This document shows, piece after piece, positions 6,158-37,726 of a stretch of 37,726 nt of DNA. Both the position numbers and the translations under genes were made by a program. Each line of letters begins with the position of its first letter. Positions within the stretch are counted from its first letter, which is position 1. A model generated the notes under the pieces. That model was given only the letters and a program-made list of their open reading frames with translations. It ran no database searches and was not told the DNA's origin. The stretch comes from a virus, in the IMG/VR virus record IMGVR_UViG_3300005582_000036, positions 1 through 37,726 of that record; one strand, 5' to 3'.

Positions 6158-6415
6158 TCATTTTTTTGTGAACCAAAATTTATTTGCTTCTTGCAATGAC
6201 TTATCTGTAATTTCGTAACCTGAATTATCGCCAATCACTGCATCGACATTGCAATGAGGGCATAAGCATGTTTTTTGATTATCTGTGTAAGATTTTATTT
6301 CACTAATTTGAAAAATTTTTCCACAATACATGCATCCAGCTTGTTTAGATGATTCAACTATTGCACGATTTTTCATCGTGACTGTTGGCAATTGGGAAAC
6401 ACTAATTTTAATCAT
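6158..6415 (-). CDS. Small zinc-ribbon protein
   Basis: 85 residues. Cys28-x2-Cys31 and Cys52-x2-Cys55 form a four-cysteine zinc site. The order CMYCGKIF ... CLCPHCNVDAVIGDNSGY ... FWF matches a small uncharacterised bacterial cytoplasmic protein family with the pattern CxxC-(20)-CPHCGxDSVxxD. Its ATG overlaps the portal stop by one base (TAATG), so it is translationally coupled to the portal gene. The role is unknown; a host-derived regulator or a small head-cluster protein are both possible. Confidence 0.72.
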   Translation of the reverse strand: MIKISVSQLPTVTMKNRAIVESSKQAGCMYCGKIFQISEIKSYTDNQKTCLCPHCNVDAVIGDNSGYEITDKSLQEANKFWFTKK

Positions 6416-18211: not shown

Positions 18212-18640
18212 TTATATCCCACGCAGAATTTGTCTGAATTGATCGACATCTTGACGACTGTGTTCCACCTGTTTTTCCAAAAATATTTCAAGCCATTTGC
18301 CATCAACTCCACCCAGTTCTTCGGCATGATTGATTCTTTGAGTGTAGTTTTCAACCACTCTTGCCTCCATATCCAGAGCGTATTGGATGATTTCTTTTGG
18401 TTCTGAATACTTGAAGAATTGATTTGAATCATCGGTTGGATGTCCTCCTAATCCAACAATTACATCTGAAAATTCAGTAATATGCTTCATTTCACTTGCT
18501 GCGTGTTCGATAAGCATTTCTTTGTATTCAACGCTATGCAGTCCAGTTACTTGGCTAGCATGAAAAAGATAGAATTTCAGATGCATCCATTCATTTTTAA
18601 GGTCATCGTTCAGCAGCTTGATCATTTCATCTTTAGTCAT
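18212..18640 (-). CDS. Ferritin-like di-iron protein (bacterioferritin/Dps-type four-helix bundle)
   Basis: 142 residues, all-helical. Candidate metal ligands are Glu17 in KNEWMHLKFY, Glu50 and His53 in ASEMKHITEF, Glu92/Glu97 in DMEARVVENY, and Glu122 or Glu126 with His127 in LEKQVEHSRQD. The first E...ExxH half-site is clear; the second ExxH is shifted by a residue or two, so di-iron binding is likely but not certain. Members of the superfamily store iron, detoxify peroxide or protect DNA. Its ATG overlaps the stop of the M28 peptidase gene by 4 nt (ATGA), so the two are translationally coupled, an unusual pairing. Confidence 0.82.
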   Translation of the reverse strand: MTKDEMIKLLNDDLKNEWMHLKFYLFHASQVTGLHSVEYKEMLIEHAASEMKHITEFSDVIVGLGGHPTDDSNQFFKYSEPKEIIQYALDMEARVVENYTQRINHAEELGGVDGKWLEIFLEKQVEHSRQDVDQFRQILRGI

Positions 18641-19776
18641 GGCATTTCCTCTAGTGGCATGTCTTTTTGACCGTGGTCGTGAAGCAAATCCATTTCCTTG
18701 AATGACCCATAGTCAAACTCGACTCTTTCAACTGCATTGCATACGGTCCACGCCAATTCAAAACCGTATCTTGCAACTTTTTCAAGACCTTCATAATTGA
18801 TCTTGTCAGCAGTATCTCTGGGGGTGTGATAGTATTCATGCAATCCAGTATGAAGGAACGCTATCGGCACCCTTTTATTATAGAAGGGTGCGTGATCACT
18901 TCCACCAGAACCTCTCAAAGTTACATTTTTTGCAAAAGAATATTTTTCTGTCAGTTGCTTAATGATAAAGCCAATATCTGGCGAACTTGATCCATCATCA
19001 AAAGCAACTGTTTTGCTTTTGCCAAGATAACCAATCATGTCCATATTCAACATGAAAATGTGTTTCTTGATATTTGGATTTCCTTTTGGGAATTTGGGAT
19101 TGTTCACATAATGGATACTACCAAGAAGTCCCATTTCTTCTGCTGAGAATGCCATAAGAACAATCGTTCTTTTGTTTTGCCCTTTCATAGCAGACAATGC
19201 TTCTGCCATTTCAATCAAGGCCGCAGTTCCACTTGCATTATCGTCTGCTCCATTATGAATCCTTCCTCCTCCTGTGCGACTGTATGTTGGACCATATCCT
19301 ATATGGTCCATGTGGGCACCAATCACAACTACTTCATCCTTAAGGACAGGATCGTTTCCTTCTAGAACTGCATAGATGTTCTGTGTAAAATCATCGCCAA
19401 TTTCATTCTTGGGGCCGGGATTGACTCTTTTGATGTTGAATTTATCGTATTCCGCTGAAAGTCCTTTGTCGTCAAATTTCTTCTTGATGTATTCAGCAGC
19501 AGTTTTATTGCCCTTCTTGCCAGACATTCTTCCTTCTAATTCATTTGAAGCAAGGTATTCAAGATGTGTCCTCAAATCGATTCTGTCGATTTTGGATATT
19601 GCCTCTGCAATTGTTAATTTGGGAGGTTCTTCTTTTTTTTCTGGTTTCTTTTCTACTTTATTTTCAAAGGGGCTTTCTGGATGATTTTGTTCATGTTGTG
19701 AATTTCTTTCCTTATTTAACAGTATTGCCAACAGTAAGAAGCCAAGAGCCAACACGCATATGTGCAACTTTTTCAT
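18637..19776 (-). CDS. M28-family zinc aminopeptidase, membrane-anchored or secreted
   Basis: 379 residues. N-terminal hydrophobic helix (ICVLALGFLLLAILL, 6-20), Lys/Glu/Pro-rich linker (about 33-55), then an M28 domain. Zinc ligands: His155 in GAHMDHIG, Asp178 in NGADDNASGT, Glu214 (with catalytic Glu213) in FSAEEMGLLG, Asp246 in LNMDMIGY and His317 in EYYHTPRDT. All five positions are intact. It is predicted to remove N-terminal amino acids from peptides in the periplasm or at the cell surface. AGAGG is upstream of the ATG. The gene is divergent from terminase and overlaps the ferritin-like gene downstream. Confidence 0.92.
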   Translation of the reverse strand: MKKLHICVLALGFLLLAILLNKERNSQHEQNHPESPFENKVEKKPEKKEEPPKLTIAEAISKIDRIDLRTHLEYLASNELEGRMSGKKGNKTAAEYIKKKFDDKGLSAEYDKFNIKRVNPGPKNEIGDDFTQNIYAVLEGNDPVLKDEVVVIGAHMDHIGYGPTYSRTGGGRIHNGADDNASGTAALIEMAEALSAMKGQNKRTIVLMAFSAEEMGLLGSIHYVNNPKFPKGNPNIKKHIFMLNMDMIGYLGKSKTVAFDDGSSSPDIGFIIKQLTEKYSFAKNVTLRGSGGSDHAPFYNKRVPIAFLHTGLHEYYHTPRDTADKINYEGLEKVARYGFELAWTVCNAVERVEFDYGSFKEMDLLHDHGQKDMPLEEMP

Positions 19777-24032: not shown

Positions 24033-24475
24033 CCCATAGTGTCAAGCAGAATTTCAATAGGCTTTATTTCAATAAAATGCACAAGGTGGTGCAAAGAATC
24101 ATTGATTAACAATTTTTGATATAATTTGAAATCGCATTTAGATTCTCCTCCATCTTTATAATCAAGCAAATTTTCCGAAGTTCCTATTTTCTTTTGGATG
24201 GCAATTTTTCCTTCTCCTTCAATGTATTCTTCATCTTTATTGATGCTTGGCATCCAAATCTCAAATCCTTCATCATCTTGTTTAATGTTTTCGCCAGTTT
24301 TCGGATTATAAATTTTGTATTTACAAAAAATTTCCTGTGCTGGTTCTGATGTGTTTCCTTTTTGGAACCATACTGGCACGCAAACTCCAACTGTTTTTAT
24401 TTCTTTGCCTTGATTCAGTTCATATCTTTGTTCCTTGGTAAGGTAAAGATGATGAGAAACGGTCAGTGTCGCCAT
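24029..24475 (-). CDS. Hypothetical protein, 148 residues
   Basis: Not recognised. Mixed alpha/beta with a beta-rich N-terminus (MATLTVSHHLYLTKEQRYEL; VGVCVPVWFQKG) and a helical C-terminus (FKLYQKLLINDSLHHLVHFI). ATG at 24475 is chosen for GGAG 9 nt upstream; the frame is open to 24526 but that part has no SD. It shares a divergent promoter interval of about 50 nt, with an ACTATATAT box, with the trypsin-like gene. Confidence 0.65.
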   Translation of the reverse strand: MATLTVSHHLYLTKEQRYELNQGKEIKTVGVCVPVWFQKGNTSEPAQEIFCKYKIYNPKTGENIKQDDEGFEIWMPSINKDEEYIEGEGKIAIQKKIGTSENLLDYKDGGESKCDFKLYQKLLINDSLHHLVHFIEIKPIEILLDTMG

Positions 24476-24491
24476 GATTGTTTTCTCCAAT

Positions 24492-24500
24492 ACTATATAT
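24492..24500 (+). promoter_or_regulatory. Candidate promoter box (ACTATATAT)
   Basis: Perfect copy of the recurrent box, 26 nt before the trypsin-like ATG at 24527. Its near-palindromic core could also serve the divergent gene starting at 24475. Confidence 0.4.
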
Positions 24501-24526
24501 TTTACACAAATTATTGTGGAGTTCAA

Positions 24527-25423
24527 ATGCTTAAAAAATTAATTTATTCTCTTGCTTTGTGGATTTTTGCAATTACTCCTGTTAATTCATATCAAGACAA
24601 TCCAAGGTTTTTTGATATTGATTCCTTTGACAGGATGCCGATTCTTGAGAGAGACAAGTTCGGCAATGAAAATCCAGCACCAATAGCTAGGCGTGGTCCT
24701 GAGTTCAGGAAATATTTGGCTCCTTCTGTAAAGATCATGGTAGGTGGAGCATCAGGATCAGGAACAATAATTCATTTCGATAATTTCAAAAAAACAGCAT
24801 ATGTTGCTACATGTGGCCACTTGTGGGAACAAGGCATAATGAATGCAGAAGAAGGCAAAAAACGCAATTTGAAATGTAAAGTAATTGTTTGGTATCACAA
24901 CGACCAAAAACTAGATGCTCCTAAATCTTATGATGCAAATGTTATTTTCTATAGCTACATTAATGGCCAAGATACAGGTCTGATTACATTCAAACCAGAC
25001 TGGGAACCAAACTTTTTTCCTATTGGCCCTTCGGATTACAGGTATGTAAAGGGTCAGCATTCACATTCTGTTGGTTGTGATTCTGGAACAGAAACAGCGC
25101 ATTATGACATTGAAATGCTTGGCATAGATGGCGATGATTTGGTTACCCGCAATAATTCACCAAGGCCCGGAAGGAGTGGCGGAGGACTTATAGATGATGA
25201 TGGTAGTTATATAGGAACATGTTGGGGAACCCAGTACCGTGATGGTACTGGCAGAGGTTACTTTACACCATTGTTTGTAATTCATAAATTCTGGTCAAAA
25301 CAAAAAGGATATGAATTCCTACTTAATCAAAAACAAGTAAGCGGAAATGCCAAGCAAATTAAAATCAAAGATCATAGTGGTTCAAAAGAGGAATTCAGAC
25401 CAGAATATATTTTGTTGCCCTGA
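24527..25423 (+). CDS. Secreted trypsin-like serine protease
   Basis: 298 residues. Signal peptide MLKKLIYSLALWIFAITPVN. SVKIMVGGASGSGTII starts the protease fold. The catalytic triad is His98 in VATCGHLW, Asp149 in NGQDTGLITF and Ser217 in RPGRSGGGLID, with the GxSGG-type motif intact. This is the S1 trypsin-like fold in bacterial secreted form, without PDZ domain. Cysteines are few. ATG at 24527 is preferred over upstream in-frame codons because GGAG lies 6-9 nt ahead and the signal peptide starts there. It ends 4 nt before the convergent nuclease gene. It probably works outside the cytoplasm. Confidence 0.88.
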   Translation: MLKKLIYSLALWIFAITPVNSYQDNPRFFDIDSFDRMPILERDKFGNENPAPIARRGPEFRKYLAPSVKIMVGGASGSGTIIHFDNFKKTAYVATCGHLWEQGIMNAEEGKKRNLKCKVIVWYHNDQKLDAPKSYDANVIFYSYINGQDTGLITFKPDWEPNFFPIGPSDYRYVKGQHSHSVGCDSGTETAHYDIEMLGIDGDDLVTRNNSPRPGRSGGGLIDDDGSYIGTCWGTQYRDGTGRGYFTPLFVIHKFWSKQKGYEFLLNQKQVSGNAKQIKIKDHSGSKEEFRPEYILLP

Positions 25424-30619: not shown

Positions 30620-31627
30620 TCACTTCGATGCTTCTGCGGCTACCAAGCAACCTCTGGCCACCGAATACAATGGATCAGATGGCTTGATAACATCGCCAAT
30701 TTTAATTGGCAATTCAACTTTACTTATTGTTTCCTTGAACAATTCAGTAAATCCATTAGGAGAACTTGTTCCTCCTGCAATTACGACATCAACTTCACCA
30801 TCAGTTCTTACAGTTTTGTTAACATCGCTAAATCCTTTTTTCAAACCGTTTACGGTATGTTCAATCATGAGTTGATATTGTGTGTGAATCGCTCTTTCAA
30901 CAAGAGTTGATGGAGGCTTTGTCAAATCAATCTTGGTTTTTTCCTTGTTGATGAAACTGATGCTTTCTCCAGTTGCCTTGGCTGCTTGACGATCAATCCA
31001 GTCTCCTGAATTTACAATAGCAAAAGTAAAAACTGGCGATCCATACATCGCATAGCAAATGTTTACCATGCCAGCACCAAAACTTGCAGAAATTCCCGTA
31101 TATGCTTTCTTGCCCAATTCAGCATAAACAAGTGCGAGTGCTTCATTGATTGGATGTGCATCAACCTTATATCCTGTTTCACTTTTGTAAGCTTTGAAAA
31201 TGGCATCGAGAATTCTTTGATGGTAATCAGCATCTGTTTCTTGATTGACTGCATTTGCTGGAACACAATAATATAATGTTTCGCCGTCTTTTTGAACATT
31301 ATTGATTAGGCTATGAATCATGATGCTCATGATCTGGAAAGCGTCTTTTTCTTTTGGGTTAACGCAACCATGTGTCATTGGCCTTTTAAGTTCTAAAGCA
31401 CTCATAGTATAAGTCATGTTGACTGCTGCTTCTCCAAGAGCGTATGCTCTCTTTTCACGCTCGATTAGAGGAACTCCTGCCCTTTTCATCATGTCGAAAA
31501 CGAATCTGTTTTCCAAAGGCATTTCAAGGAATGCGTTTACTTCTCTGTGATATTCAAAATTTCCATTTTTGTCCCTGTTACAATGAACCAAGTTATATGT
31601 TCCGCAATCAAAACCATGACTAGCCAT
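30620..31627 (-). CDS. Actin-like ATPase (ParM/MreB/Hsp70 superfamily)
   Basis: 335 residues. The three nucleotide-site signatures of the actin-Hsp70 fold are in order: phosphate-1 GFDCGTYNLV (5-14), phosphate-2 GISASFGAGMVNICYAM (178-194) with NSGDWID (206-212), and adenosine VIAGGTSSPNGF (282-293). The connecting segment INEALALVYAE (160-170) matches connect-1. Length fits bacterial actins (ParM about 320, MreB about 335-345). It probably polymerises and could position phage DNA or heads, or segregate an extrachromosomal genome. It could alternatively be a non-polymerising ASKHA ATPase. AAAGGAG overlaps the stop of the preceding small gene at 31640, suggesting an operon; no ParR-like DNA-binding partner is obvious. 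Confidence 0.85.
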   Translation of the reverse strand: MASHGFDCGTYNLVHCNRDKNGNFEYHREVNAFLEMPLENRFVFDMMKRAGVPLIEREKRAYALGEAAVNMTYTMSALELKRPMTHGCVNPKEKDAFQIMSIMIHSLINNVQKDGETLYYCVPANAVNQETDADYHQRILDAIFKAYKSETGYKVDAHPINEALALVYAELGKKAYTGISASFGAGMVNICYAMYGSPVFTFAIVNSGDWIDRQAAKATGESISFINKEKTKIDLTKPPSTLVERAIHTQYQLMIEHTVNGLKKGFSDVNKTVRTDGEVDVVIAGGTSSPNGFTELFKETISKVELPIKIGDVIKPSDPLYSVARGCLVAAEASK

Positions 31628-31936: not shown

Positions 31937-32884
31937 TTAACTAATCAAAATGGGCCATTTTTTGAACATTTTATTTATGCCTTCTTTGATTTCCTTTTCT
32001 GTCAACTCTGTCAAACAAGGCTTTAGTTCTTTTTGTGTCTTGGGACAAATTCGATAATTGTAACAAGGTCCGCAATCCCAATTTCCATCATCCATATGTT
32101 TTTGCACAAGAATAAAATCATAATATTTTCCATATGTTTTTCCATTAGCGAAAGTGAATATGCCAGTCATTGGTATTCCAAGACCTCCAGCAAGATGGAA
32201 TGTTGCTGTATCAACAGTTACGACATAATCGGCGCATGCCGTGTAGTAAATCCACTCATCAATTGTTGTGTTTGAAATGGTATTGATGTTAAATTTTTTC
32301 AGTTCTTTGTCTTCTTTTTTTTCAATTACAAACACATTGAAATCAATTAATTCTTCTATTACAGCTTTTATTTGATTTGGCTGAAGACACTTGGTTGTAA
32401 TTGCAGATTTAGGACTGAATACAACGATTGGTTTTTTTTCATCTTTTACCATTTCTTGCATTCTTTTTTTGTATATTGCAATTTTTCCCTTATGCAAATC
32501 AAAATGCATATTGGGATCTTTTATTTCATAACCGCAAAAAAGCCCCCATACTTCGGCACGATGTAGTTTGCATTCTTTACCATAATGACTTTCGTACTTG
32601 TTGGATGTTTTCACACAAGTTTGATAAAAAACAAGATATTTTTCTTTTTTTAGGTCTTCTGGGAAAATAATTTTATCAACAAGAGGATGATCTTTTATTG
32701 CATCTTGATATTGATTAAGGCAACAAAAGTGTATTTTTGCTTCTGGAATTATTTTTTTAACATCATCAAATATTAAGCGATGAATAAGAACATCTCCAAG
32801 CCCTCCCCAATCAGATATGAACAAGATTGAATTTCTTGCCTCGTTGAATTCCTTTAATGACATGTTTTTTCTTGATTCTTGCAT
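31937..32884 (-). CDS. GT9-family (heptosyltransferase-like) glycosyltransferase
   Basis: 315 residues (MSLKEF at 32863 is a possible later start). SDWGGLGDVLIHRLIFDDV near the N-terminus is the G-x-G-D loop of GT-B family 9 enzymes. VVFSPKSAITTKCLQPNQI lies at the start of the second Rossmann domain. ADYVVTVDTATFHLAGGLGIPMTGIF matches the conserved D-T/S-x-x-x-H-x-A-x-x-x-G donor-site motif of ADP-heptose transferases. C-terminal cysteines are present (DCGPCYNYRIC). It probably moves a sugar onto phage or host polysaccharide or a phage protein; substrate unknown. No clear SD; a hairpin lies 12 nt upstream. Confidence 0.83.
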   Translation of the reverse strand: MQESRKNMSLKEFNEARNSILFISDWGGLGDVLIHRLIFDDVKKIIPEAKIHFCCLNQYQDAIKDHPLVDKIIFPEDLKKEKYLVFYQTCVKTSNKYESHYGKECKLHRAEVWGLFCGYEIKDPNMHFDLHKGKIAIYKKRMQEMVKDEKKPIVVFSPKSAITTKCLQPNQIKAVIEELIDFNVFVIEKKEDKELKKFNINTISNTTIDEWIYYTACADYVVTVDTATFHLAGGLGIPMTGIFTFANGKTYGKYYDFILVQKHMDDGNWDCGPCYNYRICPKTQKELKPCLTELTEKEIKEGINKMFKKWPILIS

Positions 32885-34734: not shown

Positions 34735-35045
34735 CAATCTGATTTTTTCAAATGCATTTTGTGGATCATAAATGAGCCGCTATCAACAGCGACATACATG
34801 TAATGTCCGTTTTCTTCTGTGATTTTACCACCGTTTTTCTTAAAATCTTTTGCCACTTCAAGTAATTCGCCATCTTGGGTTTCAATTCTTGAAACGAGTT
34901 TTTTGAGGGGTATTTTTGATTCAACTTGAACACCGACCATACTTGATCTGCCGTTTTCTTGTTGCTGCGACATCCATTTTTTGAAGTCGCTGAAATTGAA
35001 TGGTCCAAAAGGATCATCATCGTTTTTATAATTCCATCTAGTCAT
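34731..35045 (-). CDS. Hypothetical protein, 104 residues
   Basis: Not recognised. N-terminus rich in Asp/Pro/Phe (NDDDPFGPFNFSDFKKWMSQ), then a small alpha/beta domain with VQVESKIPLKKLVSRIETQD, LEVAKDFKKNGGKITEENGH and YMYVAVDSGSFMIHKM. ATG at 35045 is favoured: AAGGTGG lies 9-15 nt upstream and the start overlaps the end of the gene at 35038-35907 by 8 nt, so translation is likely coupled. It probably shares a transcript with the MptE-like gene. Confidence 0.65.
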   Translation of the reverse strand: MTRWNYKNDDDPFGPFNFSDFKKWMSQQQENGRSSMVGVQVESKIPLKKLVSRIETQDGELLEVAKDFKKNGGKITEENGHYMYVAVDSGSFMIHKMHLKKSDC

Positions 35046-35907
35046 ATTTTTCACCACCTTGTTGAAAAAAAGGAAGTAATTCTTCCTCTCTTATATATGG
35101 TGCATGTTTATATTCTTTAGTGCTTGAATGATCACTTAATTTAGTTTCAAAATGAGGATGATTTTTTATCCAATAGAAAAATCCATCAATTATTCCGTGA
35201 GCTATAGAATGTTGTGGATATTCATATAATCCATTTTCAAGTTTTATAGCACCGGGTCTTTCACCATCAAAACTGTCATCACAACAAAATAACATTATAT
35301 TTTCAGCACCAAAACGATAAGCTATATTGAGTGCGGCGCATATAGAGTTCCTATAATCATCAACCTGCCATTGGGTTTCCTTTAACCCAAATCCAGAATA
35401 TTTCTTTTCATTGACAGGATAATATTTATATTTTATTCCTTTGTACGCACTCATAAATTGATGATTTGTTCTGCATGAAGCTATGCATTTTGGCATGATA
35501 CGATTTCTTCTGGGAAGATATTTCATGCATTCTCTATATGGATTATTCACCACATACCAGTTCATGACTCTATCGGTTAGGTTCCATTTTATCAAAGAAC
35601 CATTTACACCTATGATTGTTGTTGACTTTGGCAATTTAGAAAGAATTTTCTGTTTGTTCTGAAAACCATAACCATCAGAAACAATCACAACATCACGCAT
35701 TTGAAAACTTTCGCTATCAATCCAAGCACATTTTTCCAGACTATTTTTTGTTTCGTTTTCCAAGAAGGTAAAATAATCTTTGTTGTCTATAGTATTATTC
35801 AAGTCAACAAAAGGAAATTGATCAGATGTGAAATCTCTGACCCACATCCCTTCCTCTGTTAAATAATACTTGTTACCATCAGTTGTTTTTTTAATTCTAT
35901 CAGACAT
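35038..35907 (-). CDS. DUF115/MptE-like Rossmann protein, possible glycosyltransferase
   Basis: 289 residues. MRDVVIVSDGYGFQNKQKIL, then TTIIGVNGSLIKWNLTDR and MNWYVVNNPYREC, are in the layout of DUF115 and sialyltransferase-like proteins (nucleotide loop G-x-G/S, then the acceptor strand naming another 'phantom' position). Later YRNSICAALNIAYRFGAENIMLFCCDDSF matches the conserved helix-strand 'g.ta...A..lGa..I.l.G.D'. Such proteins modify flagella, surface glycans or pterins. The position directly after the decapeptide-repeat gene and near other glycosyltransferases suggests decoration of a surface protein (inference). Start ATG at 35907, 2 nt after the repeat gene's stop. Confidence 0.6.
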   Translation of the reverse strand: MSDRIKKTTDGNKYYLTEEGMWVRDFTSDQFPFVDLNNTIDNKDYFTFLENETKNSLEKCAWIDSESFQMRDVVIVSDGYGFQNKQKILSKLPKSTTIIGVNGSLIKWNLTDRVMNWYVVNNPYRECMKYLPRRNRIMPKCIASCRTNHQFMSAYKGIKYKYYPVNEKKYSGFGLKETQWQVDDYRNSICAALNIAYRFGAENIMLFCCDDSFDGERPGAIKLENGLYEYPQHSIAHGIIDGFFYWIKNHPHFETKLSDHSSTKEYKHAPYIREEELLPFFQQGGEKYD

Positions 35908-35909
35908 TT

Positions 35910-37726
35910 TTACGCCGGTTTGTTGCAGGGTACTAAGGCAAAGCAGGGTTGTTCGCCATTTTCTCCAGTTAATTTTGTCACATCCAGATTGATCTTCACA
36001 TCAATTGGAGCCCCCTTATAAACAAGTTCGATTTCCGGTTTTTCTGGCATGACCAACTTGATTTCCGAAGGAGCGCCTATCAATTCAATTGCAGATGGTA
36101 TTCCAACAACTTGAATTTTTTCTGGTATTCCAGAAGCATCAATCTTTATTGTTGGCATAACATTTGGAACTTCTAATTTAATTGAACTTGGAAGATTTGA
36201 TGTCTCAAGCTTAATTGATGATGGTATGTTAGTGGCCAAAAGCTCTATTGTTGAAGGAACATTTTCAGAATTAATTCTGATTTCATTTGGTATGGGCACA
36301 TCTGGAGCAATAATCCTAATATCAGGAATTTTTGGCGACTCAACCCTGATTATTGCGGGTATGTCATGCAAAACCTTGATGTCTGGTATCTCGGGAATTT
36401 TCAAAGTAATTTCTGATGGTATTCCAACTTCTTCAGCTTGGATTCTTACAGGCTCCAATGGACTGAATGAATCCTGCTCTGAAAACAAATCCTTGACTTT
36501 AGTGAATGGCGTACTTGCTGGGGCACATTGCACGGTCACAACAGCACTCAGTTTTGGAGGAGTTCCCCACGAAACAGGGATGTAGGGCGGTGTTCCCCAA
36601 TCTACTGATATAGGCCCTAATTTTGGTGCTGGGGCAAATTGAATCTTCGGGAAAGTTGGCGCTGGACCAAATGAAATTCTTGATGGCAAATCATCAATAA
36701 CCTGAATGAAAAGGGGAATATCATCAACCAGAACAATTGCATCAGGAATATCATCATAAAGCTCAATAATAGTTGGTATGTCTGATGCCAAAGTTATTGT
36801 CTCAGGAAGATCATCTGCCAAATTAATTGATGTTGGAAGATCATCATTGAGGTCTATGCTTTCTGGCAGGTTTGCAATTAAATTTATGTTTTCTGGAATA
36901 GTACCAACTAAATTTATGCTCCTTGGTAGATTTTCTACAAGTGTAATGATATCTGGCACAGTAGACTCAAGCGTAATAACATCTGGAATATCTTCCATAA
37001 CATTTATTTCACTTGGTATATTATCAATTACATTGATATTTGATGGCAAATCATGACTCAAAGAAATAACAGATGGAATTTCACTAGTAACAGAAATAAC
37101 AGATGGTATGTTTCCAGTTATTGATATTAGTGTTGGTATAGTTGCCGTTACTTGAATCGAAATTATTGATGGTATTTCTAGACCAATCACAGTAATAGTT
37201 GAAGGAATGTCTTCAAGAATTGAAATTATTCTTGTTATGTCATCAATAATTGAAATAACTGTAGGTAAGTCGTCATACAACTCAATATATGGAGGCAAAT
37301 CATCCAAAAATGGTATATTGGTTGGTAATGAGTCAAATACTGTAATAACTGGGTCAATATCATCTTCTACTATAATGACAGGAGTGATATCGTCTTCTAC
37401 TGTAATGACAGGAGTGATATCGTCTTCTACTGTAATGACAGGAGTGATATCGTCTTCTACTGTAATGACAGGAGTGATATCGTCATTCACTATTATGATT
37501 GTTGGCAAACTATCTGTTACTACAATCGTGGTAGGCAAATCATCGTCTATTGTAATAGTTGTAGGTAAATCATCATCTACTGTAATAGTTGTAGGCACAT
37601 CATCAATAATATTTATAATTGTTGGTATATCTTCAACAATGGCTATTGTAGTAGGAATGTCTTCTATTATTGTGATGATTTCAGGTATATCTTCATCAAT
37701 GGTGATAGTTGTCGGAATATCACTAT
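35910..37726 (-). CDS. Giant decapeptide-repeat protein, probable fibre or surface protein (5' end outside window)
   Basis: At least 604 residues; the frame is open to the right edge, so the true start lies outside (an apparent start at 37598 is an internal GTG inside a repeat). From the edge to residue about 355, the chain consists of 35 ten-residue repeats with consensus (I/L)-P-(T/S)-x-I-x-(V/L)-x-D-D. Then comes a Pro-rich segment with WGTPPYIPVSWGTPPK, and 13-14 looser repeats of 9-12 residues (IPSEITLK, IPDIKVL, IPSSIKLE). It ends in a short conserved-looking tail with two cysteines (QPCFALVPCNKPA). One strand every ten residues suggests a beta-solenoid rod; Asp pairs could bind calcium. 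No known family recognised. The DUF115-like gene follows in the same transcript. Confidence 0.8.
   Translation of the reverse strand, partial: SDIPTTITIDEDIPEIITIIEDIPTTIAIVEDIPTIINIIDDVPTTITVDDDLPTTITIDDDLPTTIVVTDSLPTIIIVNDDITPVITVEDDITPVITVEDDITPVITVEDDITPVIIVEDDIDPVITVFDSLPTNIPFLDDLPPYIELYDDLPTVISIIDDITRIISILEDIPSTITVIGLEIPSIISIQVTATIPTLISITGNIPSVISVTSEIPSVISLSHDLPSNINVIDNIPSEINVMEDIPDVITLESTVPDIITLVENLPRSINLVGTIPENINLIANLPESIDLNDDLPTSINLADDLPETITLASDIPTIIELYDDIPDAIVLVDDIPLFIQVIDDLPSRISFGPAPTFPKIQFAPAPKLGPISVDWGTPPYIPVSWGTPPKLSAVVTVQCAPASTPFTKVKDLFSEQDSFSPLEPVRIQAEEVGIPSEITLKIPEIPDIKVLHDIPAIIRVESPKIPDIRIIAPDVPIPNEIRINSENVPSTIELLATNIPSSIKLETSNLPSSIKLEVPNVMPTIKIDASGIPEKIQVVGIPSAIELIGAPSEIKLVMPEKPEIELVYKGAPIDVKINLDVTKLTGENGEQPCFALVPCNKPA
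36660..37726 (-). repeat. Region encoding 35 decapeptide repeats
   Basis: Thirty-base period throughout, with variable sequence except at Pro, Ile and Asp-Asp codons. Two units are longer (11 and 12 residues: near positions 37176-37210). Most units have diverged at the DNA level. Confidence 0.9.
37381..37470 (-). repeat. Three identical 30-bp tandem repeats
   Basis: Perfect copies at 37381-37410, 37411-37440 and 37441-37470, with partial copies on both sides, encoding ITPVITVEDD. Identity at the third codon position shows recent amplification. Confidence 0.95.

Follow-up and report, generated by a model that had tools for sequence, protein, structure and literature searches.

The window analysed here, a virus record of 37,726 nucleotides (IMG/VR record IMGVR_UViG_3300005582_000036), carries T4-like major head, portal and terminase genes. 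At the right edge of this 37.7-kb stretch, an open frame on the minus strand (35910-37724) leaves the window after 604 residues, many of which fall into ten-residue units. What kind of protein do these units build, and where in the virion would it belong?

The repeat array and the complete protein

A preliminary description of the locus, made from the letters alone, had reported at least 35 ten-residue units followed by a Pro-rich hinge and looser repeats. We also counted 35 units, starting at residues 3, 13 ... 173 of the window part (18 units), then at 184, then at 196 ... 346 (16 units). The two runs, array 1 (37179..37718, minus strand, residues 3-182) and array 2 (36660..37139, minus strand, residues 196-355), each keep an exact 10-residue register, and spacings of 11 and 12 residues are confined to the irregular stretch at their junction (37140..37178, minus strand). 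The consensus is [IL]-P-[ST]-x-I-x-[VLI]-x-x-x. Hence the earlier register stands, but not the unbroken series, nor a universal proline and Asp-Asp pair: six units have proline at position 3 or none at all (ITPVI, IDPVI, ITRII), and each of the two positions preceding the [IL]P start is Asp in only 32-46% of the units.

The strict motif occurs 40 times, whereas 2,000 shuffles averaged 4.5 occurrences and never exceeded 12; the longest run at spacing 10 comprises 18 units, compared to at most three in the shuffles. The hydrophobic autocorrelation at lag 10 is 0.76. This confirms that the decapeptide pattern is real and exceeds chance. At the DNA level, we found only short tandem arrays with 65-93% matching, as the repeats are mostly diverged. 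Since recent copies are few, the pattern is maintained at the protein level.

The sequence to the right of the window, which the preliminary description had proposed to obtain, came from a near-identical contig (L002, 99.6% identical to the window over the gene-bearing end). It supplies the complete protein of 1010 residues (L002:9110-12139). The window thus covers about 60% of the protein (35910..37724, minus strand, 604 C-terminal residues of about 1010, counting the stop). The remaining 406 residues, at the N-terminus, are encoded past its edge and comprise an N-terminal module, a PKD-like domain and a Pro-rich linker, together with about ten further units. We call the predicted domain at residues 161-233 PKD-like because three results concur. 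The PKD profiles (PF18911, PF00801) match it weakly, with 17.4 bits in L002 against a curated cut-off of 27; even the best match in the family, in L018 (E 3e-5, 24.4 bits), is under this cut-off. The fold itself is well predicted by AlphaFold (pLDDT about 80), and Foldseek matches it to several PKD structures with a probability of 1.00 and a TM-score by target of about 0.6.

Downstream of array 2, the protein continues into a Pro/Trp-rich hinge (GPAP...WGTPP...VTVQC; 36426..36659, minus strand), conserved in most relatives, and a C-terminal domain (35913..36425, minus strand). The latter is made of units resembling those of the shaft, but here their number is fixed and each unit is individually conserved across relatives. 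Its terminal cap, MPEKPEIELVYKGAPIDVKI...CFALVPC (35913..36050, minus strand), is the most conserved stretch of the family. The C-terminal domain had no match among solved structures and PHROGs.

The family and its gene neighbourhood

The preliminary description had suggested looking for the repeat pattern in other phages, and this yielded about 60 relatives, all but one on contigs of uncultured phages. In particular, the viral contigs scanned contained about 60 loci, a number that includes overlapping pieces of the same contig; the scan of genome contigs gave one relative, in a Neisseriaceae metagenome bin, which is too little for naming a host; and the sole relative among phage records belongs to an uncultured 595-kb phage (LR756511). 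This last homologue, 26% identical to the L018 protein across 97% of the latter, has the same gene order and plan as the family, but differs in its short shaft and Cys-rich units (PPSFDCISFCH). Cys-rich units (PPSFDCISFCH, NVPSFPQCISFC) occur in relatives L069:11986-14007 and L058:9974-14221, where they would align as cysteine ladders if the strands stack.

In the common plan, the N-terminal module is followed by a PKD-like domain, a Pro-rich linker, the repeat shaft, and a 205-residue C-terminal domain. The ends are constant in size (about 270 residues for the N-terminal module with the PKD-like domain, about 205 for the C-terminal domain), and in most members measured both are 44-77% identical to those of L002. 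The shafts are far less alike and range from about 144 to 1,200 residues, the longest member having 1,711 residues in total (L043:13283-18418). The L043 shaft is three times as long as that of its close relative L009, and the tape-measure-like ORFs of the two are equal in size. In a pair of genomes about 94-96% identical over the locus, the proteins differ by exactly 20 residues, that is two units, within the array. Unit length is a subgroup trait: 10 residues in L002 and L022, 11 in L006 and L055, and 12 in L004 and L024. L055 additionally has a super-repeat of six units, which we read as a duplication. The core [IFL]P[ST]xI[ST][FIV] is common to the relatives; the turn sequence is not. An otherwise unrelated protein in two contigs (L005:7275-8339, L021:4497-5057), with no Pfam match, bears a near-exact copy of the fibre C-terminal motif (MPEKPEIELVYKGEPIDVKINLDI).

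The phage structural gene context upholds the earlier view that this is a fibre. On the parent contig, the order is a tape-measure-like ORF of 2,708 residues, two large ORFs, a baseplate wedge gene (phrog_219, E 7e-28), further tail-type ORFs, a 353-residue PKD protein, a 783-residue PKD protein, the repeat protein, and an MptE-like gene. Across the family, the upstream tape-measure-like ORF encodes 1,600-4,150 residues. The 783-residue PKD gene lies immediately upstream in all 43 loci with enough sequence, and the 353-residue one is upstream in 41 of 41. The N-terminal modules of these two proteins are homologous to that of the repeat protein (hhalign E 1e-18 and 2e-9), which points to related docking of all three, presumably on the baseplate. 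In addition, the repeat protein of L018 matches a tail-fibre PHROG (E 5e-5). A location on the neck or head could also be considered, but the gene order argues for the baseplate.

The MptE-like gene (35038..35907, minus strand; related to PF01973) starts two bases past the fibre gene. As a neighbour it had been noted before, and it proved to be conserved: it lies within 600 bases downstream in 55 of 61 loci, and we propose that the two genes are co-transcribed. The relation to PF01973 is distant: of 21 members, 12 match with an E-value no higher than 0.01 (best 3.7e-6), and the L002 member scores 17.2 bits, under the curated cut-off of 34.6. The family had no match among solved structures. The putative MptE-like product may glycosylate the fibre.

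Other genes of the window include the portal gene (6415-8922, minus strand; PF07230, E 1e-74), split by an intein (PF14890, E 2e-10, residues 114-329), genes for a Volactin-family actin-like protein (30620-31627, minus strand; PF25216, E 9e-65) and a match to glycosyltransferase family 9 (heptosyltransferase; 31937-32884, minus strand; E 9e-10), and an ORF with about 85 residues that are nearly all Asp and Glu (12357-12734, minus strand). Two distant relatives also have ORFs similar to the Volactin gene, in each case downstream of the fibre gene (L018:13582-14637, L069:17534-18553). Three peptidase-like proteins (M14, M28, and trypsin-like; 9497-10591 and 18637-19776 on the minus strand, 24362-25423 on the plus strand) all have an N-terminal hydrophobic segment, possibly a signal.

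Fold of the repeat shaft

The repeat type had not been recognized in the preliminary description, and indeed the array matched nothing in Pfam, NCBIfam, and solved structures except for a pattern-level match to gp66 of phage N4. We found no literature on a decapeptide repeat in phage tail fibres, on PDB 9lc0, or on DUF115 in phages. AlphaFold models the beta structure that had been expected: almost all units contain a single strand of about 4-6 residues, though at low confidence (pLDDT 50-68, pTM 0.53); these low values count against the fibre reading. With Foldseek, we compared both models with the PDB and the repeat model also with viral structures; none of these searches gave a significant match for the repeats, so that neither they nor the profile searches assign the repeats confidently to a known fold.

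The strand in each modelled unit would also fit a single-chain beta-solenoid rod, proposed earlier, in which each unit or group of units forms one coil, and Foldseek gave weak, insignificant matches to left-handed beta-helices and other solenoids. However, AlphaFold is usually confident on solenoids, and here its pLDDT is still 63 when the repeats are supplied as an in-register alignment. Moreover, a coil made of one unit would comprise just 10-12 residues, about as small as or smaller than the smallest coils known, which to our knowledge are those of an insect antifreeze protein with about 12 residues. Similarity between units declines steadily with distance and shows no excess at lags of two or three units. 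This is what a shaft with one unit per layer would be expected to show, and it argues against coils of two or three units. As for the hexapeptide left-handed beta-helix (LpxA, GlmU), the low-confidence repeat model resembles it weakly (E 0.7 or worse), but its period is 6 residues rather than 10-12, and the hexapeptide Pfam profile did not match the array. Overall, we regard a solenoid as unlikely.

The low pLDDT, together with a proline content of 10-25% in the shafts, would be compatible with a flexible or disordered linker whose modelled strands are an artefact. Against this, a charge-hydropathy plot places all tested shafts on the folded side (29-41% ILVFM, Lys and Arg nearly absent). Moreover, the units have an exact period, and their hydrophobic positions are retained where the turn sequences differ. 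A disordered linker is therefore a distinctly improbable account of the repeats.

Still less probable, in our estimate, is a calcium-bound fibre, in which the Asp-Asp pairs of successive units would form a ladder of metal sites. The composition of the window array (20% Asp and Glu, 1% Lys and Arg) and the acidic pair in about a third of the units of L002 and L022 are consistent with such a ladder. However, the suggestion of calcium binding through the acidic pair did not hold for the family: in three close relatives, 24-37% of the units have the pair, whereas most others of the same plan have it in about 0%, with a turn of PP, GPAP or a similar Pro/Gly sequence instead. As the pairs are not conserved, we rejected the ladder as a family trait; calcium binding is possible as a trait of the acidic-pair subgroup only.

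The nearest known analogue is the appendage protein gp66 of N4 (60 kDa; PDB 9lc0, 9yf4, 9yf5; phrog_29955), the only solved-structure match of the array in phmmer (E 2e-6). It forms a long phage tail appendage and has an exact 10-residue hydrophobic period, as does the array (lag-10 autocorrelation 0.86 in the N4 fragment and 0.76 in the array). It has been modelled as a trimer in virions, for residues 1 to about 80 (PMC12633501). By contrast, its units, NIxxVxxVxx, have no proline where those of the window are Ile-Pro, its fragment has a period of 10 where other relatives of the window protein have 11 or 12, and the phage type and remaining domains are unlike ours. Common ancestry is not established, since the match score of 142 barely exceeds the maximum of 136 among 300 column-permuted controls. 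Hence we treat the two proteins as apparently alike at the level of pattern and claim no family membership.

The C-terminal needle of T4 gp5 provides a structural precedent, as it has one strand per short repeat and three intertwined chains. Its repeat is an octapeptide, VxGxxxxx, whereas here the units have 10-12 residues with Ile-Pro, and there is no sequence match between the two.

The proposed fibre and the length of its shaft

The middle of the protein is most likely a tail-fibre shaft, built of 10-12-residue Ile-Pro repeats of varying number between constant ends. For the protein as a whole, we favour with reasonable confidence a fibre attached to the baseplate of large T4-like phages that form an uncultured lineage. 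The N-terminal module, common to the two preceding genes, would be the baseplate anchor, and is followed by the PKD-like domain and the Pro-rich linker. The Ile-Pro repeats would give a shaft of beta structure in which every unit supplies a short strand and a turn, probably as a homotrimer with one strand from each chain in every layer, by analogy with the T4 gp5 needle. Gain and loss of whole units, seen in one close pair, would make this shaft a length-adjustable spacer, which may present the fixed C-terminal domain outward.

The conservation of this last domain equals that of the anchor. Most receptor-binding tips differ in this respect; such conservation is unusual for a host-binding fibre and counts against the fibre reading. 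Given this conservation, the domain seems more likely to act as a cap for the trimer, as a docking site for some other part of the virion, or as a binder of a conserved surface feature than as a typical receptor-binding tip.

Shaft length correlates with the length of the tape-measure-like ORF in 10 genomes of one clade (Pearson 0.95; phylogenetic contrasts r 0.89, p 6e-4). In all 15 genomes, the contrasts are weak (r 0.48, p 0.07); the clade that breaks the correlation, with shafts of 409 and 1,222 residues beside tape-measure-like ORFs of 2,334 and 2,316, was set apart after inspection of the data, and we treat the correlation as no more than a lead. The slope is 0.24 shaft residues per tape-measure residue, less than a shaft spanning the tail would require. 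That the Ile-Pro repeats represent a new fibre-shaft fold, with one strand per 10-12-residue layer, any turn tolerated, and unit number tuned to tail size, is a speculative extension that we think doubtful.

Repeat-built shafts determine the reach of a phage towards its host. In this family, the turns and the length vary freely, the ends are constant, and close relatives differ by whole units, making it a good system for studying the evolution of shaft length and a possible source of designed protein rods. Since the repeat is absent from every family library searched, annotating it would put a name to a virion gene that recurs in an uncultured phage lineage.
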